Positions 1-62,068 of a stretch of DNA of 64,000 bases are shown here, piece after piece; within the stretch, counting starts at the first letter, position 1; each line of letters opens with the position of its first letter. The translations under genes and the position numbers were made by a program. Origin of the DNA: a virus; the IMG/VR virus record IMGVR_UViG_3300025010_000004, positions 1 through 64,000 of that record. One strand, given 5' to 3'. The notes under the pieces are model-generated. The model worked only from the letters and a program-made list of their open reading frames with translations, was not told the origin of the DNA and made no database searches.

Positions 1-2
1 CT

Positions 3-3000: not shown

Positions 3001-5705
3001 CTGGTTCTGCAAGCACAACACTTACTTGGACCGCTGGTAGCATTATAAGAAACGACACAGTATACACATTAGCCCAAGGAACACTAGATAGTGCCCACAA
3101 CTCTTACATTATAGCTACTCTTTCAAGTAGTACTGCTACTATCTCTAAAGCAGCGTTTGGAGCTGTTCCTGCATTAACAGCAAGTCAAGTAATAATTGCT
3201 GTTACTTCTTCTGCGCCTAGTAACGGAACTAACAACTACCTTTGCTACATGCGGCAAGCTAATAGTATGGAGATGGATGGGGCTATTATCCGCCAAGCGA
3301 CTATAGGCAGTTTACAGGTAGCAGACGCATCAATAACTCAAGCTAAGGTTACTGGTCTTGTTGTAGGCGATGATGGTATTAGCATGGGGGCTAATGCTAC
3401 TATATCTTGGGGAAAAGTAGAAAGCAAGCCTACCACTTTAGTGCCTAGAAATAGTTGTGTTGTTGACGGTAATAAGATTTCTAAAGTAAATGGAGCTGCG
3501 GCTTGGGACTCTGATTGCTATAGTAAAGAGGGATACGCCGGGGGCTCATACTGTACTTTTACTGCTGATAGGAACGATAGAGATATTGTGGCAGGGTTAA
3601 CAACAGAGCCTACCTATAATCAATCATACGCGTCAGTTCATTACGCTATAAACATAACAGCTAGCGGAACTGTTTACGGTTATAGATTCGGTGTCCAGAC
3701 ACCTGCTTCAGGGCTGAGCACTTATGTTGCTGGGGATGTATTTTCAGTTGTTTACGACGGAGTGGTAGTTAAGCTTCTTAAGAATGGTACTGTTATTGGT
3801 ACACTTACCCCTGCGGCGGCTAATCTTAAACTGTATTTTGACTGCTCCATGCACTCCTCAAACTGTTCTATAAGCAATGTTCAGTTTGGGCCTATGACTA
3901 ATAGCCAGTGGGCTGGTAACATGAACGGGTTTTTGAAGTCAGTTGATGGAGGGCAATACAGAACTACTGACTCATCCAAGAATGGGGCGATTAGAATACG
4001 CCTGCCTGTTTTTGCAGATACTATGATTAAGTTCTTTGTGGATATTTACGAGTATCTTAACGGGTACTCATGTACTATGGAAATTGCTGGGTATGCTTAC
4101 GCAGGAGCTAGCGCCTGGTATAACGTAACAGCTAGAGTGGTAGGGTCAAGCAACGTAGAATACCCTGTAAGATTTGGGGTATCTTCTAGTTTACCTGCGG
4201 TCTGGATAGGCAATGTAGGTGATGCATGGTCGTATCCACAGATAACTATACGGGATGTGACACTCGGTTACGCTGGAATGTCTAAGGACTTGTGGGAGAC
4301 AGGATGGCAGATTACTTTTGATACAGCTGCCCCTACTTCTGTTACGGCTGAGGTTTTAGATACTCTACCTGGTGCGGATTGGTCTAAAGTTTCAGGAACT
4401 GGAAGACCCGCGAATGGGGCAACTGTGGGTGCTACATTAGGAACTGATTTTAAAGCTCCAGATGGAACGGTGCTAAGCGGGGGTTATACTACTATTGGGC
4501 CTAATTTTGTTTATACTGGAGAGTTGAACGCTGATAACATAAATTCTGGAATGATAGTAAATAAGAATTATTTAACTAGCGGTAGTTACTCACCTAATAT
4601 TATACCAGTTAACTCTTCATCTATAACACTAAGATCAGCTGAGCAGTTCCCTGCGTCTGGGTGGGCTTATTTGGTAAGTAGCGGAGGTGTAGAAACATTT
4701 TATTACACATCAAAAAGCGGTAATACATTGCAAGGTATACCTGTAGGGGTTTCTGGTAATATAGCCTATACACACCCGGCAGGAGTTACTTGTACTCCAC
4801 TTAATAAACCTAGCCTAATTGTAAATTCTGATATAGGGCAGTTTATAGCTATATGTGACGCTAATGGTAGTGGTAATTACACCGCTATGGTTAATATAGG
4901 AAACTCGGTGGACACCTGGGGAGAGTCTTTTGCTTCTTTTGGTAATTTGCTGCAAGGGTATAAAAAGGGAGTAGTAGGTTTATCAGCAGATGATGTGGCT
5001 ATATATGGTTCGTCTTTCGGTTCAGTAGCTATTTATGGGTCTGCTAATGCATCTAATGCTATAGGAGTCTCCGGGTCTGCACAAGGGGCTGGGGGCAAAG
5101 GCGTACAAGGTAACGGAATTGGGTACGATTTTTATGCAGCAGGGTCTAATAAGATAAAAGGAACTGTAGTAGCGTCGTTTACCGGAGCGCATGAAGGGTT
5201 ATATAGTAAAGATTTGGCACTTGTTACTGGAGATATACTTGTAGATGTGTCCTTAGTACATAAAAGGGATATAGCACAAAATATATTTGTACACGAAGTG
5301 GCAACTAAAGAGAAGCAACGAGATATTATAGGCGTAGCCAGTTCAGAGAGAGTATCGTTATCCGAAGAGATCCCTATGTCTCTAGTGGATAAAACCAAAG
5401 AGGGTATAGTCGATCCTAAAGGGGTCACTTCATGGCAACCTATAGACGGATACCTAGAACTAGCTGAACTGTATGATTTAATTCATATAAATGCAGTTGG
5501 TGACGGGGGAATAAACGTATGTAAAGACGGTGGCAACATTCAAGCGGGTGATTACATTTGCTCTTCTTCAAGACCTGGGAAAGGTATGAAGCAGGATGAT
5601 GACCTTCTTCACAACTATACAGTAGCTAAAGCTAGAGAAGATTGCATCTGGGCTGACGACGAAGACGATACTAGAATGATAGCTTGCAGCTACCACTGCG
5701 GCTGA
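3..5705 (+). CDS. Tail tip / host specificity protein, lambda J-like (5' end outside window)
   Basis: The reading frame is open from the left edge, so the N-terminus is missing; about 1900 residues are visible. Residues soon after the start of the visible part contain the J-type motif WCLYDILTNERYGLGNYF, typical of the tail tip attachment protein that contacts the receptor. The middle is Ser/Thr-rich with fibronectin-III-like beta segments (for example around bases 2640-2900). The last 150 residues (KRDIAQNIFV to CSYHCG, with PGKGMKQDDD) resemble the C-terminal peptidase/chaperone domains that help tail spikes fold; that part is inference. It heads the rightward tail genes and is followed at once by a homing endonuclease gene. 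Family assignment is firm, receptor unknown. Confidence 0.85.
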   Translation, partial: TVDLSFDPVNTPITVKVYLSEWLSYYNDHNHTRKTTLVVNDYTLKTTALDTLDNRNSMYGFNRVQNSYTYSMLASKPDYPNQDNPTMGAVVTTTTSVDAASVVISAPVLYNNANDTFVEFKLFYKEESAVDWIEYPAPQNYKDWNKLTAKATKAEVSVAREMVFPTTGTYSISLLRVTDNHHADLSIGDNIYLKSVDEIVFSEISYVNTALLGLRIKATDQISGSMPNITSVVKGVKVKVPAGTNGSNYNGSSRYMPGGYANWNGQLTSTKTWTDNPIWCLYDILTNERYGLGNYFKIDPSKHGLMLANFYTMAEYCDVRIKDDGTVVTDPASADWTAARPRFSLNLVIDESKSAPEILTAICTVMRASWYYSEGLVWIDIDRKKNISQIFNMSNIKEFTQAGSSYRGISNSYEIQYLNKDDDYKSDILIVESAGLANDLTIEERKKTIQLQGVTSYKQAQSLGKYVLAAGENLLTTVSFKTGTHGIMSTVGDVIGVQHDVPQWGYGGKVVSYNTGTRELELSAEAVFIEGSVLAVMITDGVAAPETYSLVQSAPGAYTTITLSEDPSPAPKSGDTYYVGEATNLIKPFKIIGLKRDTDEIVEVMCVEYNESIYDSADDISGLSSVYQVNYSRLPDVLNVSSITNFKVEERAYTDSSGAVKFGVDCYYTIPTQINWKGVIIYYGVYGSGVYTALSIDNTGHVFIPEVLTSGRYQFVACAVYKEGVQQTLNDAFYDLVNLPFADITLTASLSNTVMLGGISGLQIDGQGNNTEFLGKDVKFTWRKPQLLDALTGLSAGAESNGAGSDSSADWLKYYKIEVLNSSGSVRRTDKSFTEEYTYTYIQNHADGINRNIRFRACAVDKLGREGAWATIDVSNPSPAVVSGVTLTAFNDSVAVNFTPSSEIDVSHYLVYASQSSGFIPAENLLVNRGPETSFILPVTLFGTWNFVVCAVDAFGELGLNYSPQYSVYVSAPQVLPDELYTTLRTDFWVRDSIFNFSPAGSASTTLTWTAGSIIRNDTVYTLAQGTLDSAHNSYIIATLSSSTATISKAAFGAVPALTASQVIIAVTSSAPSNGTNNYLCYMRQANSMEMDGAIIRQATIGSLQVADASITQAKVTGLVVGDDGISMGANATISWGKVESKPTTLVPRNSCVVDGNKISKVNGAAAWDSDCYSKEGYAGGSYCTFTADRNDRDIVAGLTTEPTYNQSYASVHYAINITASGTVYGYRFGVQTPASGLSTYVAGDVFSVVYDGVVVKLLKNGTVIGTLTPAAANLKLYFDCSMHSSNCSISNVQFGPMTNSQWAGNMNGFLKSVDGGQYRTTDSSKNGAIRIRLPVFADTMIKFFVDIYEYLNGYSCTMEIAGYAYAGASAWYNVTARVVGSSNVEYPVRFGVSSSLPAVWIGNVGDAWSYPQITIRDVTLGYAGMSKDLWETGWQITFDTAAPTSVTAEVLDTLPGADWSKVSGTGRPANGATVGATLGTDFKAPDGTVLSGGYTTIGPNFVYTGELNADNINSGMIVNKNYLTSGSYSPNIIPVNSSSITLRSAEQFPASGWAYLVSSGGVETFYYTSKSGNTLQGIPVGVSGNIAYTHPAGVTCTPLNKPSLIVNSDIGQFIAICDANGSGNYTAMVNIGNSVDTWGESFASFGNLLQGYKKGVVGLSADDVAIYGSSFGSVAIYGSANASNAIGVSGSAQGAGGKGVQGNGIGYDFYAAGSNKIKGTVVASFTGAHEGLYSKDLALVTGDILVDVSLVHKRDIAQNIFVHEVATKEKQRDIIGVASSERVSLSEEIPMSLVDKTKEGIVDPKGVTSWQPIDGYLELAELYDLIHINAVGDGGINVCKDGGNIQAGDYICSSSRPGKGMKQDDDLLHNYTVAKAREDCIWADDEDDTRMIACSYHCG

Positions 5706-5735
5706 TTAACTATTTGATTTTATTGAGGTTTTATA

Positions 5736-6275
5736 GTGATAGTATATAAAGCTACGAACAATATAAACGGAAAAATTTATATAGGGTACACCACTAACTC
5801 TTTAGAGCATAGGAAAAGACAGCACATAAGTAGAGCTAAAAGCAAACACCAAGGAATATCGTTGTTTCATTTGGCTCTACGTAAATATGGACCTGCTAAT
5901 TTTTCATGGGTTGTTATAGATAGCGGGGTGAGTAGAGACGAACTTATACTTAAAGAAGAATTTTGGATAAATTTTTATAAAAGTAGCAGCGTGTTATATA
6001 ACCTGCGTAGTGGTGGAGCAGTAGGGTCAACACTATCAAATGATATTAAAAGACAAATATCAATAAAATTAAAGAATAGGCAAATAAAAGATGAATTAAA
6101 GAGGAAGGTAATGTGTGTTGATACTGGAGAAGTATTCGATTCGCTTACAGCAGCCGCCAAGTTTTTAAAAACATCAAGGTCTAACATTAGAAGAGTACTA
6201 GACTCAATAGGAACTTGTAAAGGGTTGACGTGGATTACTATTAAACTACCAGAGTACGGTTATACATATAATTAG
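5736..6275 (+). CDS. GIY-YIG homing endonuclease
   Basis: A 179-residue protein starting at GTG behind GAGG (spacing 7). The N-terminus MIVYKATNNINGKIYIGYT is the GIY-YIG catalytic core in the variant form VYKA...KIYIGYT; conserved downstream residues (H of RKRQH, E of LKEEFWI, N of LYNLRSGG) are also present. The C-terminal half (MCVDTGEVFDSL, AAKFLKTSRSNIRRVL) is a NUMOD-type DNA-binding helix typical of free-standing phage homing enzymes. It sits 30 bases after the tail tip gene and 10 bases before the next tail gene. It is most likely a selfish element that spreads between phage genomes and has no structural role. Confidence 0.88.
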   Translation: MIVYKATNNINGKIYIGYTTNSLEHRKRQHISRAKSKHQGISLFHLALRKYGPANFSWVVIDSGVSRDELILKEEFWINFYKSSSVLYNLRSGGAVGSTLSNDIKRQISIKLKNRQIKDELKRKVMCVDTGEVFDSLTAAAKFLKTSRSNIRRVLDSIGTCKGLTWITIKLPEYGYTYN

Positions 6276-6285
6276 GAGGGTTCAA

Positions 6286-7080
6286 GTGGCATACATATCA
6301 AACGGAACAATCTCAATATACAAAGGAACAGCTCCTATAGGACTTTCCGCCAGCCTTACTACAGGTGGAACCATACCGCTAGCTACATATAACTATAAGT
6401 TGGCTGCTGTGTTTCCTTCTGGCGAGTCTTTGCCTTCTGCTGCGGTTAACGCAGTAGTGGCTAATTCCACTAATGACGCTGTGTACTTAACCTGGACCGC
6501 AGTTACTGGGGCAACTTCATACAGAATATATAGAAAAGCCTCAACTGATGCTAATTACACTGAATACCTAACATCTGCTACTAATTCACTTCTAGATACC
6601 AACCAAGTAAGAAGTAGTGGCTCCCCGCAGGTATCCGACACAGTTAGCAATAAAGTAGTCGGAAGCGGCACTACCTTCTTAACTGGAGTTACTGTAGGTA
6701 ACAGCTTTAAAGTACGAAGTGATTCTGTTATTTATCAAGTAGCTGCTATTACTAGCGATACTTTGCTTAGCCTTAGTGTTAATTATGAAGGTAGCGCTGT
6801 TACAGGTGGACAGTACCAAATAAGCAATTACTACACACCTAACCTTAATCTAGCTGAGATAGACATGTATACAGCCGACTGGCCTCATTGGTTGACTACT
6901 GAGGTTATACGCAGGCTAGACCAGAAATTTACAAACGGGCTTACTATTAGCCCAGCGGCTAGCTCAACTCCTACAGTAAATGGAACTATGCAGTTTGAGT
7001 TAACTAGCAATACTAGCCTTAAAGTTAAGGTAAAAGGGGCTGATGGGGTTGTAAGAAGTACCACATTAACGTTAGCATAA
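6286..7080 (+). CDS. Tail-associated protein with fibronectin-III domain
   Basis: A 264-residue protein with GTG start behind a strong TAGGAGGG site. Residues 20-90 form an Fn3-like unit (LATYNYKLAAVFPSGES ... VYLTWTAVTGATSYRIYRK), a fold common in phage tail and baseplate proteins that touch the cell surface. The rest is Ser/Thr/Val-rich beta-type sequence with no catalytic motif that I recognise. Its place between the tail tip gene and the endolysin supports a virion role. The exact position in the tail is unknown. Confidence 0.6.
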   Translation: MAYISNGTISIYKGTAPIGLSASLTTGGTIPLATYNYKLAAVFPSGESLPSAAVNAVVANSTNDAVYLTWTAVTGATSYRIYRKASTDANYTEYLTSATNSLLDTNQVRSSGSPQVSDTVSNKVVGSGTTFLTGVTVGNSFKVRSDSVIYQVAAITSDTLLSLSVNYEGSAVTGGQYQISNYYTPNLNLAEIDMYTADWPHWLTTEVIRRLDQKFTNGLTISPAASSTPTVNGTMQFELTSNTSLKVKVKGADGVVRSTTLTLA

Positions 7081-7092
7081 AGGAAAATACTA

Positions 7093-7257
7093 ATGGCAAA
7101 AAAACCAGCCCTCAAAGCAGTACCTAAAACATCTAAAATTGACAAAGAAGTTAAGGGCAAAAGGAAAGGTAAGTCTAAAAAGACCAATCAAGGCAACTCT
7201 CGTAACACTAAACGCACCACTAAGAATAAAACAAGAGAGAAAAAGGGTAGAAAATGA
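7093..7257 (+). CDS. Small very basic protein (54 aa)
   Basis: ATG lies 12 bases after the previous stop, with AGGAAA in front of it; the stop TGA overlaps the ATG of the endolysin gene (ATGA). The product is about 40% Lys plus Arg (MAKKPALKAVPKTSK ... NKTREKKGRK) and has no hydrophobic segment. Such proteins often bind nucleic acid or are structural accessories, but no family is recognised. The coupling to the endolysin suggests that the two are translated together. Confidence 0.6.
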   Translation: MAKKPALKAVPKTSKIDKEVKGKRKGKSKKTNQGNSRNTKRTTKNKTREKKGRK

Positions 7258-7727
7258 AACCTCAAATTTCTGATATGCACCCAAAGTTACAGGAATTTTT
7301 TAAAGAATTTTCAGCTAAAATGGCAGAGGCTGGAGTTCCGTTCGCCTTAACTTGCGTACTAAGAACTAAAGCAGAGCAGACTGCCTACTACGCTCAGGGC
7401 AGAAAGTCATTGGTAGAAGTAAACATACTGCGGCTTGCCGCAGGTATGTCTATGCTAGTTCCTTCTGAGAACAAATACACAGTGACTAGTACTATGAATA
7501 GTAAACACTTTCCTGACGCTAATGGTAAATCTAGAGCCTTTGATATAGTCATTTTGAAGAATGGAAAGACTTTGGTTTGGGATATTAAATGGGATGGGGA
7601 TAAGGATGGTATACCTGATTACTTAGAAGCTGCAAATATTGCTAAAGATATTGGGTTGGAGGCAGGCGCTTTTTGGAAGACGTTTAAAGACTATCCACAC
7701 GCGCAGCTACCTGCAAGTATAAAATAA
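7254..7727 (+). CDS. Endolysin, M15-type L-alanyl-D-glutamate peptidase
   Basis: A 157-residue peptidase that would cut the peptide stem of peptidoglycan at the end of infection. The zinc site of the VanY/M15 family is visible: S-K-H near residue 84 followed by the Asp of SRAFDIV, and the terminal motif DYPHAQL (D.PH.Q in the family). The length matches single-domain phage endolysins such as that of T5. There is no signal peptide, so export needs a holin; a holin-like gene lies at 14330. It is coupled by ATGA to the basic protein upstream. Confidence 0.85.
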   Translation: MKPQISDMHPKLQEFFKEFSAKMAEAGVPFALTCVLRTKAEQTAYYAQGRKSLVEVNILRLAAGMSMLVPSENKYTVTSTMNSKHFPDANGKSRAFDIVILKNGKTLVWDIKWDGDKDGIPDYLEAANIAKDIGLEAGAFWKTFKDYPHAQLPASIK

Positions 7728-7740
7728 AAAGTAATAATAT

Positions 7741-7770
7741 TTGCATGTTTTAGGTATATAAATATATAGT
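7741..7770 (+). promoter_or_regulatory. Possible promoter for the tail fibre genes
   Basis: The gap between endolysin and tail fibre contains TTGCAT, then 18 bases, then TATAGT, in a very AT-rich stretch. It lies just ahead of a GTAGAA-N4-TTCTAC palindrome at 7791. The match to a sigma-70 promoter is weak compared with the near-perfect promoters elsewhere in the window. Confidence 0.25.
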
Positions 7771-7790
7771 AGGACTGTTTTTAATCTAAA

Positions 7791-7806
7791 GTAGAACATG
7801 TTCTAC
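7791..7806. promoter_or_regulatory. Intergenic palindrome, copy 1 (CATG centre)
   Basis: Perfect 16-base palindrome GTAGAACATGTTCTAC. This is the only copy on the rightward side. It stands 20 bases before the ATG of the tail fibre gene, with AAGGAG between, the same arrangement relative to the downstream gene as for the leftward copies. Confidence 0.8.
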
Positions 7807-7825
7807 CTATACTAAGGAGTGCTTG

Positions 7826-9424
7826 ATGGCCTTAAATCTAAGAACCATATCTAACAGCGGAGCTGGTCTTAAAGATCCTGCAGGTAATCTGCTGTCTAAT
7901 ATAGAAGTTTCTTTTACCTTAGTTGATAGGTACGGAAAAGCCAAAGACTTTTTCGATAGTGTAACTGGTGAAAGAGTAGCATCTGTTACAAAATCTGTAA
8001 CTACTAACAGCTCGGCTGAGTTTTCTATAGCACTTTGGCCTACTTCTAGAGCGACAGAAACAGCCTTCTACAAGTGTAGTGTCAATCACACTGGGATTAA
8101 AGATTTTATATCTCCTTTAGTTGAAGGGGAATCTGTATTATCTTGGGCTACGTTTAAAGCTTCTGGCGCTTCTATAGAGGCCAATGAGACTTCTGGTTTT
8201 GCGCAGCATTTACAAGATATGTCTCTGCATTTAACTACTGCGCAGAACATAGCTTTGGATGCTGCTAATAATCCTTCTATAGCTAACCCTTACGCGACTT
8301 TGAATGATATAGTTCTGTCTGGAGGCGGTCACGTAGTACAGGACGAAGGTAATAATGCGCCTGCACAGGGGAAGCTTAATTTTGTAGGAGCAGGAGTAAC
8401 TGTTTCTGATGACCCTGATAACGGGGCTACTGTAGTCACTATCGTGACCGGCGAAACAAGCGCCGCTACTAATTTAGTAGCTGGGGCTGTTAAGCTGTCT
8501 GTAGCTGCGGTTGATGCTGAGAATCCTATAGCAGTTGGCACTAACGACTCTAGGCTTAGTGATTCACGAACTCCTCTTAGCCATACACAGCCTCTTTCAA
8601 CTATAAACGATGTAACTATATCTGCCGCTAATCTCAATAGTTTAGATGATGGAATTAACTCTACACTCCATTTTCACAATGCTGATAGAGATAGGGCTAA
8701 CCACACAGGAACTCAGGGGTGGGCTACTGTAACAAAGACAGGATCTTTCTTAACTGACATAGCAGATATACCAACTCCGGTAGCTAGTAAAGCTCTTAAA
8801 AGAAACGCCACTAACACAGGCTACGAGTGGGCAGATATTTCTGGGTTAACTGACCATGAGGGATTGACTGGTTTGCTAGGTGGTGCTGCAAACGACCACC
8901 ATCACATAACTAGTGCTCAACGAACAGATTTAACGGACGGCGGTGATAGCACTCTCCATTATCATGCTAGTGACCGACTTGTTGATAACCATGTATCAGG
9001 AACTACGAATAAGCTTTTTACTGCTACAGAGAAAACTAAATTAGCAGGCATATCTGATGCTGCAAATAATTATACTCATCCTTCAACACACTCTGCTGAT
9101 ATAGTAACTGATGGCACAACTAATAAAGCATTTACTGCAACTGAAAAAACAAAGCTAAGTGGTATCGCAGATAGCGCCAATAATTATGCTCACCCATCAA
9201 CTCATACAGCAAGTATTATCTCTGTAGCTACTACTGGGTTTGCTGGTAATTTAACTTCAGCAGAAGATACTGTGCAAAAGGCGCTAGATAAGATTGACGA
9301 TTTAGTTTTAGGAGCCACGCAAGTAGTATTGGAGCATGAAGACACGCAAATAACCACGCAATATACGTTAGTGGTTGGATTAGACGAAGAAGGAAATACT
9401 GTACTAAAAATAGTGGAGTTATAA
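7826..9424 (+). CDS. Tail fibre protein with repeated FTATEKTKL segments
   Basis: A 532-residue protein; ATG at 7826 is 6 bases after AAGGAG. The N-terminal 120 residues look like a virion-attachment domain (LKDPAGNLLSNIEVSFTLVD, then a beta sandwich). The C-terminal half has repeats typical of long tail fibres: FTATEKTKLAGI ... ANNYTHPSTHSADI, then FTATEKTKLSGI ... ANNYAHPSTHTASI, and the HFHNADRDRANHTGTQ / HYHASDR segments. These form triple-stranded fibre shafts in known phages. It probably reaches the receptor or carries the next gene product. Confidence 0.8.
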   Translation: MALNLRTISNSGAGLKDPAGNLLSNIEVSFTLVDRYGKAKDFFDSVTGERVASVTKSVTTNSSAEFSIALWPTSRATETAFYKCSVNHTGIKDFISPLVEGESVLSWATFKASGASIEANETSGFAQHLQDMSLHLTTAQNIALDAANNPSIANPYATLNDIVLSGGGHVVQDEGNNAPAQGKLNFVGAGVTVSDDPDNGATVVTIVTGETSAATNLVAGAVKLSVAAVDAENPIAVGTNDSRLSDSRTPLSHTQPLSTINDVTISAANLNSLDDGINSTLHFHNADRDRANHTGTQGWATVTKTGSFLTDIADIPTPVASKALKRNATNTGYEWADISGLTDHEGLTGLLGGAANDHHHITSAQRTDLTDGGDSTLHYHASDRLVDNHVSGTTNKLFTATEKTKLAGISDAANNYTHPSTHSADIVTDGTTNKAFTATEKTKLSGIADSANNYAHPSTHTASIISVATTGFAGNLTSAEDTVQKALDKIDDLVLGATQVVLEHEDTQITTQYTLVVGLDEEGNTVLKIVEL

Positions 9425-10276
9425 ATGAACTTTCGAATTAAAAATAAAGCTACTATACTTTTCACTGCGACTATTGGCGCTTTCTTTGTAGCCCAGATAT
9501 ATGCGGCTCCTGGGGATAAAACTGACGTTGGAAGTGTTTCTGCTGTGAGGCATAAGCGGTTATCTAGCGCTACGTTAGACTACAATAGGATGCCTAACCG
9601 AGTAGTTGTTCAGGATAGTCTAACCTCCGCTTCATCTACTGAGGCTCTCTCAGCAAAGCAAGGTAAGAATCTTAAAGCGATCCAGGACAACTACAGCACG
9701 GCGCAAGCCGCAAAGGATGAAGCACAAGACTCCAATATTAACGCGCGCCTTGCAACCTCAACGGCAGCAGCAACCTACAAAACCCTCGAAGGTTTCAACG
9801 ACTACTCCGCCGCACAACACGCCAAGCGCATCGCCCACAAAACCGCCGACGATCACCCCCAGTACCACAACGACACGCGGGGGGATGCGCGGTATCAGAA
9901 AAGCACATTAACCGGGCTTTCCGGCGATGCCACGTTACGCACCAACAACACCTACATTGCCAACGCCACCGGCAGATTGACGTTAGCCAATTACTCCACA
10001 GGCAGAATCGTTTTGTTCACGAATTACAGCGCCCGGCTCATCCCAGGTCAATCATCCATGCAGGTTAAGTGGACGCATCCTTCCACTTTCACAGGCTACA
10101 CAACATCGGCAGGATGGTCGGTAAAAATACCGGTCAATACCTACCTGGAACTGGTATCGCTAGGCTCCCCAATGTGGCAGGCGATCATGACAACGCAGCA
10201 CCTGGTTAAAACTGGAATAGATGAATTTAACGCACTGCCGAGTGCAACCATAGTTATTACCAACTTAGTACCATAG
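9425..10276 (+). CDS. Mosaic tail fibre-like protein with N-terminal signal-like segment
   Basis: A 283-residue protein. Residues 9-28 (ATILFTATIGAFFVAQIYAA) look like a secretion signal or membrane anchor, unusual for a tail fibre. Residues 60-85 (RVVVQDSLTSAS, ALSAKQGKNLK) are a common tail-fibre repeat. From about base 9690 the codon use turns GC-rich and the protein continues with HTKTADDHPQY-like and TGLSGDATL segments; the C-terminus is a compact beta domain. The gene therefore looks like a fusion of an AT-rich phage 5' part and an imported 3' part. Receptor binding is likely but not shown. Confidence 0.55.
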   Translation: MNFRIKNKATILFTATIGAFFVAQIYAAPGDKTDVGSVSAVRHKRLSSATLDYNRMPNRVVVQDSLTSASSTEALSAKQGKNLKAIQDNYSTAQAAKDEAQDSNINARLATSTAAATYKTLEGFNDYSAAQHAKRIAHKTADDHPQYHNDTRGDARYQKSTLTGLSGDATLRTNNTYIANATGRLTLANYSTGRIVLFTNYSARLIPGQSSMQVKWTHPSTFTGYTTSAGWSVKIPVNTYLELVSLGSPMWQAIMTTQHLVKTGIDEFNALPSATIVITNLVP

Positions 10277-10285
10277 GAGGTCGGG

Positions 10286-13200
10286 ATGAGATTATTCTTT
10301 ATAAGTATATTTTTGCTCCTCCTAACCAGCAACGCCTGGGGAGCATCTATTACCAACGCCACCGGCCAGGCCGCAGGCACCTATAACTGGTCAGATTCGG
10401 CCACATGGCAGGGCGGCGTTATTCCGGGTCACGACAGCAACGCAAACAGCGACACCGTTATCATCAACGCCCCGGCCAGCGGCGTCATCACTCTTATCAT
10501 CGACCAAAATCTGACCATCGGCAATCCGGCAGACAACACCACGTTCGGGGTTTTGGTTAAAGGGGTTTCAGCAACCAATTACGTGCGGCTGCAGGTTGCC
10601 GACGGCGTGACGGTAACGTTTACCGGGCTCACCAATTACGGACTCAATCAGGGCTATCCTCTGAAAGTTGAGCGGTACGGCCGATTCGAGCCACAACCGG
10701 GCAGCGCGGTAGCGATGGACTCGGCCAGTGAAATGCAAAACATGGCGCTGATACAGGGCACCGTCTACGCCGTCGGCACGGCTGACAAAAAAATAACCTT
10801 TACCTCCCCGGCTGCCCGCGTCAATTGGAACAACAGCGGCACCACTACCCTGACAACCGCCCACGAAAAACAGTATTGGGTGGATAAAAACATCATCAAC
10901 ATCAAACTCGACCGCGACTGGATAGCCAATGCAGACGGCACCGGTCCCGGCGACGACTCGGCTACCGGCAGCACGTCAATAAACGTCTCGGCGATGGCCC
11001 CGGCGGGTTTATTCACAACCCGCAAAAATTACCAATTGGACGCCAACGGTTTGCCCGATCCGACCAACCTTACCGAGGTCGGGGATTATTCCATTAATCA
11101 CGACATGGGACAGATATTTGTCAAAGTAACCGATCAGAACTATGCCGCCATCTCCGCGACTATCGCCTATAAATACCTCACCTATACCGGCTGGGGCATC
11201 AAGCTGCTGGAGAATACCACCTACAACGAAGGCTTTTTTGAACACTGCAATTTTGAGTACATGGGTTTTTACACCACAGCGTTAGGTTCCAACTATGGCG
11301 GAATTACTGTCAGATATAAAAACAGCGCAGCCAGCGCAGCCGACCGTCTATTCAGGTTTGCTAACAACCGGGTAAGGTACTCGGCCTCGTTCCTCGGCCT
11401 TCGGGCGCTGACCGGCACGGCTGCCGACCCGATACTGATTGCCAACAATGATTTTGGTGCCGTCTATGCCGTATCGAGCGCGTTTGCCACTCTTAATTTT
11501 TACGCTGAGGCCAGCGCTTACGTAGCCTTGCGCGACAATCTGGTTAAGACATACCGCTATTTTGTCTCTTCCGGAGGTTACAGCGCGATTCCTATACCGT
11601 TGTCAAATTTTACATTTACCGGCAACAAAATTGCCGCGGCGCAATTGTGGGAGGCAAAGCAGTATGGCGGCGCTCCGATGCCGGATCTGGACATGTCTGG
11701 CAACTATCTGCACGGTTTCGGCTCGTCCGCCATTGCCTCGTCTCTCGTGTATATCAAACATATTTACGGAACTGCCGGCCACCCGGTGCTGATTCATCAC
11801 AACGAGTTCGCCCATAATTACCGGACGATTCTGCACGAGTCGCATATAAAAATTTATGGCAACAATTTTAGGAACTGCAACAAACACTCAAATATGATGG
11901 CCGCATCTAGCCTGGACGAGTACTTATCCGACGTTGATTTTTACAATAACGTGGCGTGGGGTCACGGCATCAGCATCAACACCTCCGGGTTATTCCAGCT
12001 TGGTTATAACAATCGCGTATGGGTGGACAATATCAGGTGTAAAAACAATACGCTGTATAACGCAATCAACGGCTTGGAGTTGTCAGACCTCGACATAGGC
12101 GGCTCTGGCACCACCAACATCGTAACCGTGGGCACCAATATCGAGTATGACAACAACATTGTCCACTCCATGACCACCAACGGCGTGCAGGTGGGGCTGG
12201 GCTGGAACTCCCGTTACAACCGTACCCGGCTGCACCTGGTCAGCCTCGACAACAATATTGTGTACAACTCCGGCTCTGCAGCCTATCTCAATGTTACCCC
12301 CGGCACGTTTACGTGGGGCGGGGAACGGTACAATCTGGCGGCAACGCGCAATGTTGAAGGGGTCGCACTTCATTCGGCCAGCTACAGCAGTCCGCAAACC
12401 AACAAAGCCCTGGCGTTGACAGTAACCACACCCGGCAGTGACGAAACACTGGCATGGGATGGCGGCACGGCTATCCAATTGGTGCAGGGCACCGGCTCGT
12501 TCACCAGCGCCGGAACTAATCCGGCTGACGGTTCCAGTGGTCGAACTCCGTTCGGCACGGTCACCGACGCCGCAAAAACCTGGCAGGTTGACGATTTTCG
12601 GGATACTGACATCAACACCGTAACCAGCCCGTCGGCAATGTGGATCAAAATCACCTCTGGCACCGGCGCGGGGCAGATCCGCATGATTGCCCACACAGCC
12701 AGTGCTACCACATTGAGGATTGTCCCAGCCTGGGACACGCTGCCGCAGGTGGGCGACACCTACACCATTTACAAATCAATGGTGCAGTTGACCGACGGGG
12801 CTGGGACAAATACTATTATGGCCGGTATTGATCTCCGTACCTTACCTACCACCTCACAGACCGACACCGGTATCTCGTGGGCCAACAACAGCCTGACCAG
12901 TGACCCACTGCTGGCGAATCCTGCATCGCTGTCCACCAGCGTTAATGACTACAAAATCACCGCAGGCTCACCGGCCATTGACGCGGGAACGTCACTCAAT
13001 GCCCCTGCCACCGACTATTTTGACACTTCACGCACTACTGCTGATATTGGGTTTTTTGAGTTTGTGTCGGCAGCAAACACCACCTTCGCCGCCTCCGGTA
13101 CGGTTTCAGGCATCGGTACCAGTGACACAATCAGCACTATCCAGATCATCTGGCAACTAAGTGGGACCGATGCAAACGAATCTGCCGCTATATCAGCGGG

Positions 13201-13384
13201 CAGGACAGTATCGTTAACTGAGTCCTCAGATGTATCAGCTTTTCAGGGGTCAGGTTACAACGTATCCATCTCTAAATTGGGGGCGGGAACCTACACGCCA
13301 AAAGTAAGAGTTATCGAAAATAGAGGCGCAGGCGGCAACGTTACCGGGGGCTGGACCGCTGGCAGCAATTTTGTAATTCCGTAA
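10286..13384 (+). CDS. Secreted-type right-handed beta-helix surface protein
   Basis: A 1032-residue protein with a clear signal peptide (MRLFFISIFLLLLTSNAWG, then AS). Residues 30-75 (TYNWSDSATWQGGVIPG, DTVIINAP) match the start of G8-like / polysaccharide-surface domains. Residues 330-640 contain many short Asn-rich rungs (ANNDFG, DLDMSGNYLHG, HHNEFAH, YGNNFRNCN, YDNNIVH) expected of a parallel beta-helix as in pectate lyases and tail spikes. The C-terminus is an Ig-like module. The codon use is GC-rich (34 of 60 bases in 12421-12480), unlike the neighbours, so recent transfer is likely. It could be a capsule depolymerase, adhesin or lysogen-free moron; catalytic residues cannot be named. 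Confidence 0.6.
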   Translation: MRLFFISIFLLLLTSNAWGASITNATGQAAGTYNWSDSATWQGGVIPGHDSNANSDTVIINAPASGVITLIIDQNLTIGNPADNTTFGVLVKGVSATNYVRLQVADGVTVTFTGLTNYGLNQGYPLKVERYGRFEPQPGSAVAMDSASEMQNMALIQGTVYAVGTADKKITFTSPAARVNWNNSGTTTLTTAHEKQYWVDKNIINIKLDRDWIANADGTGPGDDSATGSTSINVSAMAPAGLFTTRKNYQLDANGLPDPTNLTEVGDYSINHDMGQIFVKVTDQNYAAISATIAYKYLTYTGWGIKLLENTTYNEGFFEHCNFEYMGFYTTALGSNYGGITVRYKNSAASAADRLFRFANNRVRYSASFLGLRALTGTAADPILIANNDFGAVYAVSSAFATLNFYAEASAYVALRDNLVKTYRYFVSSGGYSAIPIPLSNFTFTGNKIAAAQLWEAKQYGGAPMPDLDMSGNYLHGFGSSAIASSLVYIKHIYGTAGHPVLIHHNEFAHNYRTILHESHIKIYGNNFRNCNKHSNMMAASSLDEYLSDVDFYNNVAWGHGISINTSGLFQLGYNNRVWVDNIRCKNNTLYNAINGLELSDLDIGGSGTTNIVTVGTNIEYDNNIVHSMTTNGVQVGLGWNSRYNRTRLHLVSLDNNIVYNSGSAAYLNVTPGTFTWGGERYNLAATRNVEGVALHSASYSSPQTNKALALTVTTPGSDETLAWDGGTAIQLVQGTGSFTSAGTNPADGSSGRTPFGTVTDAAKTWQVDDFRDTDINTVTSPSAMWIKITSGTGAGQIRMIAHTASATTLRIVPAWDTLPQVGDTYTIYKSMVQLTDGAGTNTIMAGIDLRTLPTTSQTDTGISWANNSLTSDPLLANPASLSTSVNDYKITAGSPAIDAGTSLNAPATDYFDTSRTTADIGFFEFVSAANTTFAASGTVSGIGTSDTISTIQIIWQLSGTDANESAAISAGRTVSLTESSDVSAFQGSGYNVSISKLGAGTYTPKVRVIENRGAGGNVTGGWTAGSNFVIP

Positions 13385-13537
13385 TGGTCATCAGGCTGGA
13401 ATGGTCAAACGAGGGGAGAGTTTAAAGCCTACTCGTTCGATGGTGGATTTGGAAATCTGTTGACGGGCTATTTTGAAGTTTCTGTCGGCACCCACGAACG
13501 CAAAAGCATCCTGGCAAACGAACTTCAAACACTGTGA
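13385..13537 (+). other. In-frame 50-codon open extension after the beta-helix stop codon
   Basis: After the TAA at 13382-13384 the same frame stays open for 50 codons (WSSGWNGQTRGEFK ... ILANELQTL) to a TGA at 13535. It has no start codon of its own with a binding site. The encoded sequence is protein-like (Gly/aromatic-rich). It may be a former C-terminus cut off by a new stop codon, a low-level readthrough extension, or the remains of a deleted gene. Confidence 0.4.
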
Positions 13538-13549
13538 ATGGAGGTGACT

Positions 13550-13756
13550 GTGCAGGAAGAATATAGAGGACCGGAGCGGCGGAGAATAATAATGTGTACG
13601 CTGCTGATGGTTATTGCATCAGGCTGCTCAAGGCACCAGCTAGACTCCTACGATGTTAGCCTATCAGCTAACGATACAAAGTATCAGAGTGATAGATCAG
13701 ACACGGCAACTACAGTTGGTGGAAAGATTGATTTCCACTTTAAGGTGAAGAGATGA
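13550..13756 (+). CDS. Small putative lipoprotein
   Basis: A 68-residue product read from GTG at 13550 behind GGAGGTGA; an upstream ATG at 13538 has no binding site. After a charged N-terminus (EEYRGPERRR) comes a hydrophobic stretch ending in the lipobox-like VIASGC, so Cys would be lipidated after signal peptidase II cleavage. The rest is Ser/Asp-rich with a beta-type end (GGKIDFHFKVKR). Its place beside lipase-like and holin-like genes fits an outer-membrane lysis factor (o-spanin-like), but no Pro-rich region typical of Rz1 is present, so this is a guess. Confidence 0.5.
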   Translation: MQEEYRGPERRRIIMCTLLMVIASGCSRHQLDSYDVSLSANDTKYQSDRSDTATTVGGKIDFHFKVKR

Positions 13757-14337
13757 ACACTATAAAATCAGCAGTAGACGCTTGCTATAATAGCTACGAT
13801 GATGCACAAGCTATTCAAGTAGATGATATGTACTATCATGTATGCGAGATAGATGGTACTACCTATTTAGCTATTAGAGGCACTGATAATAAAATGAACG
13901 TGCGTAGAAACCTTAGGTTTTGGCCAGCGCCCAGTCCCAAAGGTCACATAGCACATAAAGGGTTCGTTGGCGCTAGCAACGTCCTAGTGCAAGAAGCTAA
14001 AAGAATAAAAGAAGAATCAAAAAATTTTATCATAACAGGCCACTCTCTAGGCGGAGCTACCGCTATTATACTAGCGGAAGCTTTGGAGTGTCAGGTAATT
14101 AGCTTTGGGTCTCCTAGAGTATACTTTAAATGGGGCAGCAGCCCTACCTTGAATCATCTTAGGGTAATATGCGACGATGACCCTGTGCCTATGATTCCTA
14201 GGCTTCTTTACAAGCACGTAGAATCCCAATCACTTGTGCTTCACGACAATGATGGGGGCATAGATACAAAAGATCACGACATTGATGTGTACCGTAGTAG
14301 AGTATACGCTTATTTCAACGGAGTCTATAATGGGTAA
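13753..14337 (+). CDS. Class 3 lipase-like alpha/beta hydrolase
   Basis: A 194-residue protein coupled to the lipoprotein gene by ATGA. It shows the serine hydrolase elbow ITGHSLGGATA (Ser near residue 100), a following Asp in the CDDDPVPMIP segment and a late His in TKDHDIDVY, which together give the Ser-Asp-His triad of fungal-type class 3 lipases. The segment YLAIRGT is the usual oxyanion-side strand. There is no signal peptide. In mycobacteriophages LysB esterases attack the outer envelope; an analogous envelope-lipid role at lysis is plausible here, as is a virion role. Confidence 0.75.
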   Translation: MNTIKSAVDACYNSYDDAQAIQVDDMYYHVCEIDGTTYLAIRGTDNKMNVRRNLRFWPAPSPKGHIAHKGFVGASNVLVQEAKRIKEESKNFIITGHSLGGATAIILAEALECQVISFGSPRVYFKWGSSPTLNHLRVICDDDPVPMIPRLLYKHVESQSLVLHDNDGGIDTKDHDIDVYRSRVYAYFNGVYNG

Positions 14338-14566
14338 GAAACTAAAAGATATACTTGCCGGGTTTATTGAGGATAAGAAAACATCAACTGCAGGAGTAGT
14401 CCCATTGGCCGGAGCAGCGGCTATGGCCTATGGTATGTATACAGGGGCAGTTCCTATTACGTACGAGAACGTCGGTATAGTTGCAACTGGAGCTTCTACT
14501 GGTATAGGACTTTTATTTGCAAAAGATTCAGCAAAGAAGAAGAGAGTGCCAAGGAAGAAGAAATAA
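14330..14566 (+). CDS. Holin-like small membrane protein
   Basis: A 78-residue protein that overlaps the lipase stop by 8 bases. It has two weakly hydrophobic Gly/Ala-rich segments (AGVVPLAGAAAMAYGMYTG and VGIVATGASTGIGLLF) and a strongly basic tail (AKKKRVPRKKK). This layout fits a two-segment holin, but similar proteins also occur in tails. It is the last rightward gene before the bidirectional terminator. Confidence 0.45.
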   Translation: MGKKLKDILAGFIEDKKTSTAGVVPLAGAAAMAYGMYTGAVPITYENVGIVATGASTGIGLLFAKDSAKKKRVPRKKK

Positions 14567-14570
14567 GAAA

Positions 14571-14600
14571 AGCCCCTCAACTAAAGTTGAGGGGCTTTTT
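14571..14600. terminator. Bidirectional rho-independent terminator
   Basis: An 11-bp perfect stem AGCCCCTCAAC / GTTGAGGGGCT around loop TAAA is followed by TTTT on the plus strand and, read the other way, preceded by AAAA that gives a U run on the minus strand. It separates the rightward tail/lysis genes from the leftward metabolism genes. Confidence 0.93.
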
Positions 14601-14631
14601 AGTTATCGCTACGGGAATTAACGTAGCGTTA

Positions 14632-15093
14632 CTAGTAATCTTTTCCTTTTTTAAGTATCTTTTGGTTTGAGCTTGCTAAGGTAACTCCATATACTGTATC
14701 GAAATTTCCTTTAAGCTCGTCTATGTATCTACCAGTTTTAATATAGTCGAATTGGTTTCTAATACTAAAGTCAATCTCTGCTATAATCTTACGCGTAAAC
14801 AGCCACGTCTTAAGCCCTGCATTTTTAAGTTTTTCAGCCAATTCAAGCAGCTCTTTAGTAGGCTGCTCTGTAGGCTCGCCGCCCATAAACATAACTTGAG
14901 TAACTAGCCTAGGGTTTTCTTTTGATTTACTTATTAAGTACGCGCTTAGTTCTTCTACTGATACCTCGTCACCTTTAGTAGGGTCATGCGTTTCTGGGTT
15001 GTGACAATTAAAACAATGTGGGCCTGAGCAGCCTGCGAAATAAATGTCAATAGATAGTGAGGATAAGGAGTATTGGGTAGTAAGTATCCTCAT
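14632..15093 (-). CDS. nrdG: Anaerobic ribonucleotide reductase activating protein
   Basis: A 153-residue radical SAM enzyme that installs the glycyl radical on NrdD. The [4Fe-4S] motif is AGCSGPHCFNCHNPE, a C-x4-C-x2-C form used by one NrdG branch. GGEPTEQP is the SAM-binding GGE motif. Its ATG overlaps the NrdD stop (TAATG), so the two are translated together. It works only without oxygen, which says something about when and where the host grows. Confidence 0.93.
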   Translation of the reverse strand: MRILTTQYSLSSLSIDIYFAGCSGPHCFNCHNPETHDPTKGDEVSVEELSAYLISKSKENPRLVTQVMFMGGEPTEQPTKELLELAEKLKNAGLKTWLFTRKIIAEIDFSIRNQFDYIKTGRYIDELKGNFDTVYGVTLASSNQKILKKGKDY

Positions 15094-17021
15094 TATAGTT
15101 TAACCTTCTCTGCTTTGTAGAACTGTCTATTTGGGTAGTCTTCTTCTCGCCTTACCTGATTCCAGTATTTAACGTTGGTAAGAAACCCAACAACCCTCGT
15201 AAAGTTATCTGCAACATCAGCCCCACATATTGAACACTTCGTATCTTTACCTATACTCATATGGTCATTTACACATCGCTGTATATTGTAGTTAATAGCA
15301 AAATAAACAACCCCCTGCTTGGCACACGTCTTAATAAGATCTACTATCTTATTGTGGTCATTTATCCTTTCTTCTACATTTAGGTGACATATAGCACCGC
15401 CTGAAAAGTGACTGTCAAACAACCCCTGAAGCTTGATTCTATCTAACAAATCAGCCTTAGTAACTAGAGGAATAAACTGATTGCTGTAGATATCGTACTT
15501 ATCATTAAACCCTAGAAGTCTGTCTTTAGCAGCCAATTTAATCGAACTGCTTTCTCCTGGGATTTGTTCACAGTTATGTGGAGTCTTGTACAACTTCTGG
15601 TATTTGTCATTTTCAAGGTTAATAGTTTCTAGAAGAGCTACTACAAAATCTTGCCCGTCACTTTCTAGAATATTGTACCCCATAATTTCACAGCATTCAT
15701 TAAGCCCGTTAACTCCTAAAGTGGAGTATTGTCTTGATAACTCCATAAAACCTAGTGAGTAGAGCGGTAAATTTCCACTTTCAATCCTCTTCTTAATTAT
15801 GGTTCTTTTAGTGTGGTTAACTTTAGCAGCCACCCCTACTAGTTCTTTTAACTCACTAAAGAAGTGTGTTTCTCTTTCTACGCTGTTACTTATTTTAGCT
15901 GCTCTCGTAGCCAGCTTGGGTAAATTTACAGAAACCACCCCAAGAGACCCTATCTTGGAACTACCGCTTCCGAATGAGTTGAAGTACTCATTATCCATTT
16001 CGGATCTTAAACGGCAGCATGAGCTAAGCATCGAGGATTTGCCTATGTAGATGTTGATAAACCCATAGGCCATGTTTTTCTTTGCAATGAACTCGGCAAA
16101 GGTATTGTCTAGTAGTTCCTTCTGGTCGTTTATTGTAAAGCAGGCAGTCACTATAGGAAAAGTAATCGGGGTGCGCTCCATTTCTTTATTCATTACATCT
16201 AGAAACAACTCTTGTAGTTGCTCGACCACATATATAGTAGGGGTGCTCCCATCCGGGAATACGTAGTTCGGGCAAAGGCTTTCTAAGAAAGGCCTGTCGA
16301 ATATAGACACATTTGTAAAGCACGATTGGGAACCTCTTGAGGGTTGTCCAAGAGTGTAAATTAGACTTACTATAGTCTCTTTTACGTATTTCCAGCATGA
16401 GGCTTCATCCTTGAATTCAAAGCCTGCATCTTTTTTATCAGTCAGAATTTTCTCTACATAATAACTCATAACTATGAACAAATCCGCCAGGCCGGTGGCC
16501 CCTAGGGTTGAGTTCGCCGCAATTATAGTGAATTGTTCCACCTGGCTTTTGAAGCTGTACAGGTATTTAGGAGCAATTGATTTAATCTTATCGACCATCG
16601 GGAGACCTAAAAGTGAAATATCGTAAGTGCTGTAATTAAAACAATAGGGACTCCCTGCAGCGATGCCGTGAGCATCATGAAAATAAACATTACCTGATAT
16701 TTGATCTTCCATAGCTGAGTTAGCTATAGCAGCCCCATAAAGCTTCTTCATATTTTTCCATAGCATATAGTAACTATTTAGTTTTAAAAAAGGCTTTGGC
16801 AACTCCAAGCTGTATGCTATATTGCTGTTGTCAGACATATTAGCGTTGGAGTCTATACTGGCATCGGCAGTAGTAGCTGCAGCGAAGAACTCTTTTGAAA
16901 ATTTTGACATGTCAAGTTGCTTGCCGATACCGTCGATATCAAACAACTTTTGCCCGTATTTAGATTTTAGGTACATCATTAAGTCTACAAATTCTTGGTC
17001 GTACGTTTGGTGAATATACAT
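15093..17021 (-). CDS. nrdD: Anaerobic (class III) ribonucleoside-triphosphate reductase
   Basis: A 642-residue enzyme that reduces NTPs to dNTPs using a glycyl radical and formate. The radical site is in RVVGFLTN near residue 612, with the usual metal-binding Cys/His cluster in front (CVNDH, CSICG). The segments NSTLGATGLADLFI and FTNVSIFD belong to the NrdD barrel. The length is close to that of T4 NrdD (605), and the regulatory ATP-cone is missing or very short, as is common in phage enzymes. A strong AAGAAGGAGAA site precedes the ATG. Confidence 0.95.
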   Translation of the reverse strand: MYIHQTYDQEFVDLMMYLKSKYGQKLFDIDGIGKQLDMSKFSKEFFAAATTADASIDSNANMSDNSNIAYSLELPKPFLKLNSYYMLWKNMKKLYGAAIANSAMEDQISGNVYFHDAHGIAAGSPYCFNYSTYDISLLGLPMVDKIKSIAPKYLYSFKSQVEQFTIIAANSTLGATGLADLFIVMSYYVEKILTDKKDAGFEFKDEASCWKYVKETIVSLIYTLGQPSRGSQSCFTNVSIFDRPFLESLCPNYVFPDGSTPTIYVVEQLQELFLDVMNKEMERTPITFPIVTACFTINDQKELLDNTFAEFIAKKNMAYGFINIYIGKSSMLSSCCRLRSEMDNEYFNSFGSGSSKIGSLGVVSVNLPKLATRAAKISNSVERETHFFSELKELVGVAAKVNHTKRTIIKKRIESGNLPLYSLGFMELSRQYSTLGVNGLNECCEIMGYNILESDGQDFVVALLETINLENDKYQKLYKTPHNCEQIPGESSSIKLAAKDRLLGFNDKYDIYSNQFIPLVTKADLLDRIKLQGLFDSHFSGGAICHLNVEERINDHNKIVDLIKTCAKQGVVYFAINYNIQRCVNDHMSIGKDTKCSICGADVADNFTRVVGFLTNVKYWNQVRREEDYPNRQFYKAEKVKL

Positions 17022-17049
17022 GCTTTGTTCTCCTTCTTAAAGAATAGAA

Positions 17050-17077
17050 AGGAGAGTGTACAACAATACACTCTCCT
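17050..17077 (-). terminator. Hairpin between clpP and nrdD
   Basis: An 11-bp stem AGGAGAGTGTA / TACACTCTCCT with a 6-base loop, followed on the minus strand by TTTCTATTCTTT. It lies after the ClpP-like gene and before NrdD, so it could end or weaken transcription or stabilise the message. A TATAAT-like box lies just upstream but has no good -35 partner. Confidence 0.55.
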
Positions 17078-17114
17078 ATGGGTATCTATATTATATACCT
17101 AATTCCAACCTTTT

Positions 17115-17864
17115 TTATTTAACTTTTGTGGCAACTTTCTTAGCTACTTTGCGCTTGCTTATCGGGGTTACATCGAGCCCCCTAGGAACTACCGCGTCAA
17201 CAAGACCCCATTTAACCGCTTCTTCTGCTGTAATATACCAGTCTTGTTTTTTAGCATGTAGTTCATCAAGTCTCTTTTGGGTGACTCTACTCTTCTCTAC
17301 AATGATACTATCAATAACCTTCTGGTCTTTTGCCAGTTGGTCTGCGTTATCCTTATGGTCTTGCAGCTTTCCATAGCCTGGAAAATTTGCTATACTGTGG
17401 GCCATAAGTGCGCAAAAAGAATATGCGTACCGGGCGTGCCCAGATATTAGAATTAGAAATGCCATTGACGCGGCCTGCCCTTGTGCTACAGTTACCACAG
17501 GGGTTTTTGATTGGTAGATCGCGCTCACTACTGCAAGGCCGTCTGTAACGTAACCTCCGGGGCTATTTATAAATAAAGTTATAGGGTTGTATAATCTGTT
17601 ATACCCTACTTCCCTAGCAGTCAGTTCTTCATCTTCACTATTGAAACGCTCTATCGCCATAACAGCTTTTTCAATCCATGTTTCATCTACAGGGCCATTT
17701 AGAATTATTTGCCTGTTAGCTAGATGCTCTTTGTAAACATCAGTGGCTATATTGCCTGTGCTTAAAAGCTCCTGCGGGTTACACCCCTGTGCTACCGAAA
17801 CCTCCTTTACGTTCGGTTTCGTCAAGTTCATCAACTGCCACAAATTTTGCTTGTATATATTCAT
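17115..17864 (-). CDS. ClpP-like serine protease
   Basis: A 249-residue S14 peptidase. The catalytic residues are visible: Ser133 in GQAASMAFL, His156 in ALMAHSIAN and Asp208 in [24 protein letters not shown] is the substrate-binding strand. The N-terminal ~45 residues and a Lys-rich tail ([13 protein letters not shown]) extend the core. It starts inside the end of the dUTPase gene (86-base overlap). Because it sits among nucleotide metabolism genes and not beside portal or capsid genes, it is unlikely to be the head maturation protease; it may act with, or compete against, the host Clp ATPases. Confidence 0.85.
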
Positions 17865-18240
17865 TAAATACCCCCTGCGCGATTCTGTCTCCGTCGGCTA
17901 TTACGACTGGTTCCGTTCCGTGGTTAATTACAATAGCCCCAATTTCATTTCTATAGTCAGAATCTATAGTCCCTGGAGTGTTAACTAGAGTGATGCCGTG
18001 CTTAAGAGCTAGGCCAGACCTAGGCCTAAGTTGAAGCTCATATCCTTTGGGTATAGCCATAGCAATCCCAAGAGGTATAAGCTTCCTCTCTCCGACATTA
18101 AGTATCAGTGGCTCGTCGAGGTATGCATAAAAGTCTACACCAGATGAGCCGACGGTAGCGTCTTTAGGTAGAGGGTGCCTCCCATCCCTAACGTTTTTAA
18201 TTTTAACGTAAAACATATATTTCTTTAAAGCAGAAAACAT
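17779..18240 (-). CDS. dut: dUTPase (trimeric dUTP diphosphatase)
   Basis: A 153-residue enzyme that converts dUTP to dUMP and keeps uracil out of phage DNA. All five family motifs can be seen: [43 protein letters not shown] and the terminal GGFGSTG. ATG at 18240 follows AGGAGG by 4 bases; the TTG before it is too close to the site. The last motif overlaps the start of the ClpP-like gene. Confidence 0.95.
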
Positions 18241-18248
18241 CAAACCTC

Positions 18249-18818
18249 CTATCCAATTAAATTTTCTTGTAAAAATTCAAGATTAACTTCTTTACCAGCA
18301 CTACACATGTCTGCTAGGTGAACTATAAGTTCAGCGGTTGCGTATTCCTCAGGAAACTTTTTAGCTCTATTATGGGAAGTCCACCGACCTGTATGGTAGG
18401 CAACCGCATTACATATCTCAGAAACGTCCTTCTTAGCTATGCCCTCAAAGTCAATAGCAAGCTTAGCCAAGAATCCAGCTCCGTCTCTATCGTGAGTTTT
18501 GGTTGTGTATTTCTCCATCACTAGCCCGTATTTAACTATGTCGTGCAGGATAACGGAAGAAATAACTATGTCTTTTTCTCTACCTTCTAAATTATAAGCT
18601 CGACACAGAATGCCTGCAAAATATGTGGCAGACCTTGTATGTCGTACTAACCCACCTGTGCCATTACTTTGAGCCGGGTGGTATTTTCCAGTAGATGAAC
18701 TGGGCACCAGCCAGAAATAAGCTGGTGCCTTGTCCAACGCGAACTTTGTAAATTCACGTATGTTATCATCCTCAATCTGCCTAAGCTCATTGCCTAGTAG
18801 ATCCTCTGCTCTGCTCAT
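18249..18818 (-). CDS. HD-domain hydrolase
   Basis: A 189-residue protein with a metal-binding HD signature: H in [11 protein letters not shown] in [11 protein letters not shown], a His in [10 protein letters not shown] and the Asp in HLADMCSAG. Proteins of this type are phosphohydrolases acting on nucleotides or on oligonucleotide signals. The start overlaps the stop of the phosphoesterase gene upstream (TAATG). The exact substrate is unknown. Confidence 0.75.
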
Positions 18819-55485: not shown

Positions 55486-55501
55486 GTAGAACATGTTCTA
55501 C
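55486..55501. promoter_or_regulatory. Intergenic palindrome, copy 11 (CATG centre)
   Basis: GTAGAACATGTTCTAC with the TAG stop codon of the NAMPT-like gene inside it. It lies directly behind the end of RNA gene 2 and so separates two convergent transcripts. Confidence 0.85.
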
Positions 55502-61979: not shown

Positions 61980-62068
61980 TTTTTAGTTAATAAAAAATGC
62001 TTATATTCGGTATATAATACATATAGGAGCAGTTGGATTCGGCTCAAATAACTTATACTGGAGACGCG

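Follow-up and report, generated by a model that had tools for sequence, protein, structure and literature searches.

A probable recombination slot for signal-bearing fibre and adhesin genes downstream of the tail operon in a long-tailed phage

Enterobacterial phages carry mosaic tail-fibre genes with conserved linker patches and, to our knowledge, without Sec signals. Their constant ends, variable receptor-binding body and crossovers at short conserved stretches recur in the locus described here, a GC-rich block at positions 9670-13540 of the first 64 kb (the window, i.e. the whole stretch that was analysed) of the 113,294-bp virus record IMGVR_UViG_3300025010_000004, hereafter G000; unlike in those mosaic fibres, two or three consecutive genes are affected in this slot. 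The nearest precedent for the sharing of such genes is found in the distantly related Alteromonas phages A5, V22 and P24, which have a host-recognition module in common (PMC10579305), the likeness lying in fibre genes that are common to phages of different tail types otherwise without similarity. In the Alteromonas system, however, a multi-gene module is shared together with its cognate chaperone and at the protein level, whereas the G000 group displays short DNA joints, body swaps and a deletion scar, and bears a signal peptide on every fibre. A secreted phage protein encoded among tail genes is also known from lambda, where Lom, a signal-bearing outer-membrane protein, lies between the tail-spike and tail-fibre regions (PMC12309495); Lom is a beta-barrel, whereas the two G000 proteins in question, encoded by the genes starting at 9425 and 10286, are predicted to have a fibre or beta-helix body.

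G000 is a long-tailed phage, as shown by its terminase, portal and capsid, its tape-measure protein of 1388 aa and a tail protein resembling lambda J, and we consider it likely that the block is a recombination slot for receptor-binding genes of fibre or adhesin type behind its tail operon. Alignments with the phages introduced below show that, in each of the two genes, the body has been replaced between a resident signal-bearing N-terminus and a resident C-terminal segment. They further show that foreign DNA came by exchange with the fibre genes of other phages, leaving behind near-identical joints of 50-105 nt and a deletion scar (Table 1).

The original prediction, made from the window alone, had described a jump in base composition at 9670-13540 and a junction within a coding frame, with the fibre as a fusion, all of which has held up, and had proposed a codon profile as a check. 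The block has a G+C content of 53.1% versus 41.9% for the remainder of the record, all other non-overlapping 3.9-kb stretches of which reach at most 47.6% (mean 42.1, standard deviation 2.1). The G+C content at third codon positions (GC3) is 0.54 in the 9425 gene and 0.64 in the 10286 gene, versus 0.27-0.37 in the other adjoining tail and lysis genes; relative to the genome gene mean of 0.41, these values correspond to z = 1.7 and 3.1, respectively, and because the excess resides at third codon positions, amino-acid composition is not its cause. Along the 9425 gene, GC3 runs at 0.28-0.45 to about residue 90 and at 0.53-0.78 thereafter, which places the left edge of the block within the reading frame. 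In its relative synonymous codon usage (RSCU), the 1032-aa body lies at a distance of 1.53 from the phage's own core, above the maximum of 1.07 (mean 0.64) seen for the phage's own segments of equal length. Only the right end needed correction: the foreign stretch extends to about 13585 instead of 13540, and recipient-type stretches occur inside the block.

How much of the block is new? A second phage, G004 (3300025012_000046, 99.5 kb; L087/L097/L099), has its gene order and most late genes in common with G000, mostly at about 30-80% protein identity, and immediately behind its counterpart of the 7823-9424 gene it carries genes of 137, 732 and 1089 aa, followed by a lipoprotein-like and a lipase-like gene. 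The 137-aa gene matches the 9425 gene over the first 55 residues (54.5%) and at the end (PSATIxxTNLVP), with no clear match in between, and the 732-aa gene matches the 1032-aa gene in its signal peptide (MRLF...WGA) and its last 103 residues (77%), the two bodies being left unaligned by BLAST. Because both genes thus recur in G004 at the corresponding place, N-termini and C-terminal ends included, the slot, the signals and the C-termini are old, predating the split between G000 and G004, and the bodies alone have been replaced. The G004 block is also GC-raised, if less strongly (GC3 of 0.36-0.45 versus 0.28-0.32 in its neighbours). The original prediction had held that the same gene in the same place with matching composition in related phages would make the block an old one, and G004 bears this out as regards the genes, their place and the raised G+C content, but not as regards the bodies, which are unrelated.

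The same comparison bears on the recent capture of a surface protein that had been proposed for this block. Imported sequence does lie in an adhesin locus beside the tail genes; by contrast, a single capture in which the signals arrived together with the rest is at odds with G004, which has both slot and signals. The foreign codon usage of the body and its bacterial-type anchor domain would suit the capture of one host surface-protein gene in a single recent event, but such an origin is improbable given that signals, C-termini and slot are common to G004, that resident and foreign stretches alternate, and that the matches of two patches and of the scar are to fibre loci of phages, not to bacteria.

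These patches lead to a third phage, G003, a GC-rich phage unlike G000 in other respects and with a 61.8-kb record with repeating ends (L039, L041, L042), and to its two variants, G005 and G007. The stretch at 9832-9895 is identical at 64/64 positions to the interior of the 1101-aa fibre gene of G003; it recurs in G007 (62/64) and G005 (60/64), and 48 of its bases match G006 at 98%. G003, G005 and G007 have their fibre genes in common as far as the 3' end of this patch and part immediately beyond it, and G000 departs at the very same base. On the right, 13491-13585 is 91.6% identical to a stretch that begins ten bases past the G003 fibre stop codon, and its 31-base core, which lies just 3' of the fibre gene in G001, G002, G003, G005 and G007, is exact in eight IMG/VR contigs, all from metagenomes 3300024999, 3300025000, 3300025012 and 3300025030. 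The adjoining 105 nt at 13391-13495, which match the interior of the G005 fibre gene (1311 aa, another allele of the G003 gene) at 94.3% identity, fall outside the 1032-aa gene, whose stop is at 13384; because an orphan piece of a fibre gene is here joined to that gene's usual downstream border, 13391-13585 is a deletion scar. The 72-aa open reading frame (ORF) at 13538 starts with VQEEYRGPERR, residues of the small membrane protein that follows the G003 fibre, and past 13585 no match to other phages continues, the lipoprotein-like and lipase-like genes coming next, as in G004. Since the patches are identical at 92-94% or at 64/64 positions, whereas the neighbouring resident genes of G000 and G004 have a DNA identity of 74-76%, the exchanges are probably more recent than the split of these two phages.

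Table 1. Features in and around the slot, in window coordinates
Feature	Position	Strand	Evidence
Resident fibre gene without signal peptide, GC3 0.27	7823..9424	+	83% protein identity to G004 counterpart
Fibre-like gene of 283 aa with signal peptide; first 55 aa and last 12 aa resident, middle replaced	9425..10276	+	
Resident signal peptide and N-terminal segment of the 9425 gene	9425..9589	+	54.5% identity to G004 over 55 aa; signal rule
Left joint	9832..9895	+	G003 fibre gene, 64/64 nt identical; five fibre alleles diverge at its 3' end
Resident-type stretch that takes in the end of the 9425 gene and the signal peptide of the 10286 gene	10225..10359	+	72% nt identity to G004 over 137 nt
1032-aa secreted (predicted export) adhesin-like gene, probable beta-helix, GC3 0.64	10286..13384	+	
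Choice-of-anchor Q domain (NF041518)	12902..13063	+	36.8 bits, cut-off 25
Resident C-terminal domain, 103 aa	13073..13384	+	77% identity to G004
Scar: piece from the interior of a G005-type fibre gene	13391..13495	+	94.3% nt identity to L104:7811-7916
Right joint and end of import: usual 3' border of other phages' fibre genes and start of their small membrane-protein gene	13491..13585	+	91.6% to L042:12173-12261; exact 31-nt core in 8 contigs
72-aa lipoprotein-like ORF, first residues donor-derived	13538..13756	+	
Resident lipase-like gene flanking the slot	13753..14337	+	Pfam Lipase_3; 58% to G004

Could the joints have arisen in the computer? The contigs that share these patches all come from four metagenomes with adjacent numbers, probably belonging to one study, as would be the case for an assembly chimera of co-occurring phages. 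We nevertheless regard such a chimera as very unlikely, because two contigs with differences elsewhere both contain the block, eight contigs whose flanks are not alike carry the patches, and the reading frames run unbroken across the joints. The second of these two contigs, 3300025000_000360 (L002/L004/L096), differs from window positions 1-15500, block included, at 4 bases and diverges beyond. Variation generated by a diversity-generating retroelement, which the constant patch just 3' of the variable fibre genes might bring to mind, has a negligible probability in our judgement: whole bodies differ, not adenine positions, and reverse transcriptase (PF00078) is absent from G000, G001, G002, G003, G004 and G006, so that this candidate was rejected.

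Two further instances of modular fibre genes came to light in the same set. An all-against-all comparison revealed more module sharing, e.g. of the third signal-bearing adhesin gene of G004 (1089 aa, L087:6285-9554, with weak NosD/beta-helix matches), which is a chimera of modules found in G001, G003, G005, G006 and G007; at its counterpart position G000 retains nothing but the scar at 13391-13585. Fibre modules of G004, G006 and G007 are also connected by a second recurrent patch, AYTS[AV]GGGRATND (L087:6495-6555, L040:287, L056:5315), to which related sequence occurs in G001 and G002.

As for the proteins themselves, both are encoded in the virion morphogenesis region, downstream of the tape-measure, J-like and fibre genes. 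The 9425 gene and the genes that share patches with it have fibre repeats together with the DDHPQY linker that is characteristic of tail fibres; its score against PF22337 (25.6 bits) is under the cut-off of 27, and the function of its PHROG matches is not assigned in PHROG. The large body finds its strongest match, above the curated cut-off, in the choice-of-anchor Q domain of bacterial surface proteins (NF041518), the difference being that in G000 this domain is followed by a phage-family C-terminal domain and in the bacterial proteins by a sorting signal. The claim that the 1032-residue protein is a beta-helix is plausible. Its ten N-turn motifs, versus 3.2 in shuffles (p = 0.001), form a ladder in favour of such a fold, but there was no Pfam helix match, a PDB sequence search with the protein returned no match, and AlphaFold2, run on the body without relatives, gave a predicted local distance difference test (pLDDT) value of 30. 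The small C-terminal domain yielded a moderate-quality model only, with no confident structural match.

Several observations weigh against a recombination slot fed by the fibre genes of other phages. The joints are short, and one would not expect a virion assembled in the cytoplasm to take in a secreted protein. A search for the beta-helix protein among bacteria and prophages had been suggested as a check, and the searches made produced no donor: in phages, plasmids, genomes and viral contigs, the body had no relatives apart from the phage itself, the ends of the G004 gene and L003, a weak match to the anchor domain. The C-terminal domain, for which phages, viral contigs and genome contigs were searched, likewise led back to the phage itself, G004 and the weak L003 match, the contig finders relying on exact 8-residue words and thus missing distant relatives. 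Moreover, the codon usage of the body fits no other phage of the set (distance of 1.18 or more), G001-G003 and G005 being nearer to it than G000's own core, without fitting. The original prediction had named the host or another phage as the source; a phage source applies to at least two short stretches (9832-9895 and 13391-13585), and for the large body, with no donor among the sequences searched, a bacterial and a phage origin both stand.

The signal peptides are the odd part of this locus. They were called by a simple rule, not SignalP, which asks for a positively charged start, a hydrophobic core and small residues at -3/-1, and which is passed by 50 of the 1013 ORFs in the loci examined. 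Only 6 of the 122 G000 ORFs pass, among them both N-termini (9425 and 10286), in agreement with the earlier remark that these are signal-like and unusual; the J-like protein, the fibre at 7823, the endolysin and the gene at 6286 all fail. Across the sharing phages, 7/7 N-terminal families of fibre or adhesin genes pass. Among 39 complete ORFs with a DDHPQY-type motif, five do so, comprising 4/4 from this group and 1/35 from elsewhere (Fisher p = 6e-5, which is a guide only, the counts being small and two of the four group members related). The signal sequences of several lineages bear no obvious relation to one another, which speaks for selection on export and not for one inherited segment. 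A literature search on signal-bearing fibres found nothing directly comparable; a survey of phage retroelement targets described phage-encoded variable proteins without signal peptides and took this as support for their phage origin (PMC6199706), which makes the signals on the fibres of the G000 group notable.

Because signal peptides are retained on every such gene in these phages, the proteins would be expected to go through the host Sec system late in infection. Their bodies may bind host-surface glycans or receptors, the joints may provide the short homology needed for crossover, and a body swap would then change which cells are recognised. Are these proteins parts of the virion at all? 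It is a real possibility, if short of a probable one, that they are instead surface or periplasmic infection proteins that coat or mask the cell (superinfection exclusion, debris decoys), or secreted depolymerases, evolving by body swaps. Signal peptides on all of them, the choice-of-anchor Q domain, which belongs to bacterial surface proteins, the lipoprotein-like and lipase-like neighbours of the slot in G000 and the example of Lom would all be in keeping with such a role, which is harder to reconcile with the fibre repeats and DDHPQY linker of the 9425 gene and its patch-sharing relatives, and with the position of these genes within morphogenesis operons, flanked in G001, for instance, by portal-like and capsid genes. 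Returning to receptor-binding fibres, we tentatively suggest that several phage lineages of one habitat have independently fitted theirs with Sec signals, that the exported proteins do their work, or are added to the particle, outside the cytoplasm, and that, no longer bound to assembly in the cytoplasm, they could take up bodies of bacterial surface proteins and make up one common pool.

The composition of the fibre genes is what a shared pool would lead one to expect, in that most of them keep to a narrow GC3 band across differing carriers. Core GC3 ranges from 0.36 (G004) to 0.62 (G001), and the fibre genes of G001, G002, G003, G005 and G006 and the two large G004 genes fall at 0.43-0.50, lower than the core in the four GC-rich phages but higher than it in G004 and G006. 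The small G004 gene, at 0.36, equals its core value and is outside this band, and the G000 pair (0.54 and 0.64) lies above it. DNA patches common to G000, G001, G002, G003 and G006 place fibre sequence in phages of different core lineages, lineages that appear distinct by composition and by remote portal and terminase matches, without a tree. Phages that share the adhesin slot probably use similar hosts. The G000 terminase is ~30% identical to those of T5-sized enterobacterial phages, and the best portal and terminase matches are remote (about 28-50% identity) and spread across many hosts, no host being assignable from marker genes. Fibre swapping between phages is known as such, but joints, donor relatives and a deletion scar are rarely caught together in uncultured phages of different types, and the question raised is whether some phages deliver adhesins through Sec, and to what end.

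Other parts of the window deserve brief mention. Past ~15500, contig 3300025000_000360 (L096) is up to 26% different through the nrdD/clpP/dut region (window 15500-18587), and its four differences from G000 sit near 8500-9000, the edge at ~15500 marking either recombination or a junction of strains. At 5736-6275, in the interval that separates the J-like gene from the tail gene after it, there is a 179-aa ORF with a GIY-YIG-like start (IVYKATNNINGKIYIGYT) and a GC3 of 0.28, probably a homing endonuclease. The stretch at 55498-57033 strongly matches phage nicotinamide phosphoribosyltransferase (PHROG 448, E 9e-197), possibly a nicotinamide adenine dinucleotide (NAD) salvage gene relevant to NAD-depleting defence. 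Finally, a plus-strand 430-aa ORF at 62033-63325 (GC3 0.27) stands amid genes on the minus strand, where the window has its most AT-rich kilobase (34% G+C), and is a candidate for a further import.

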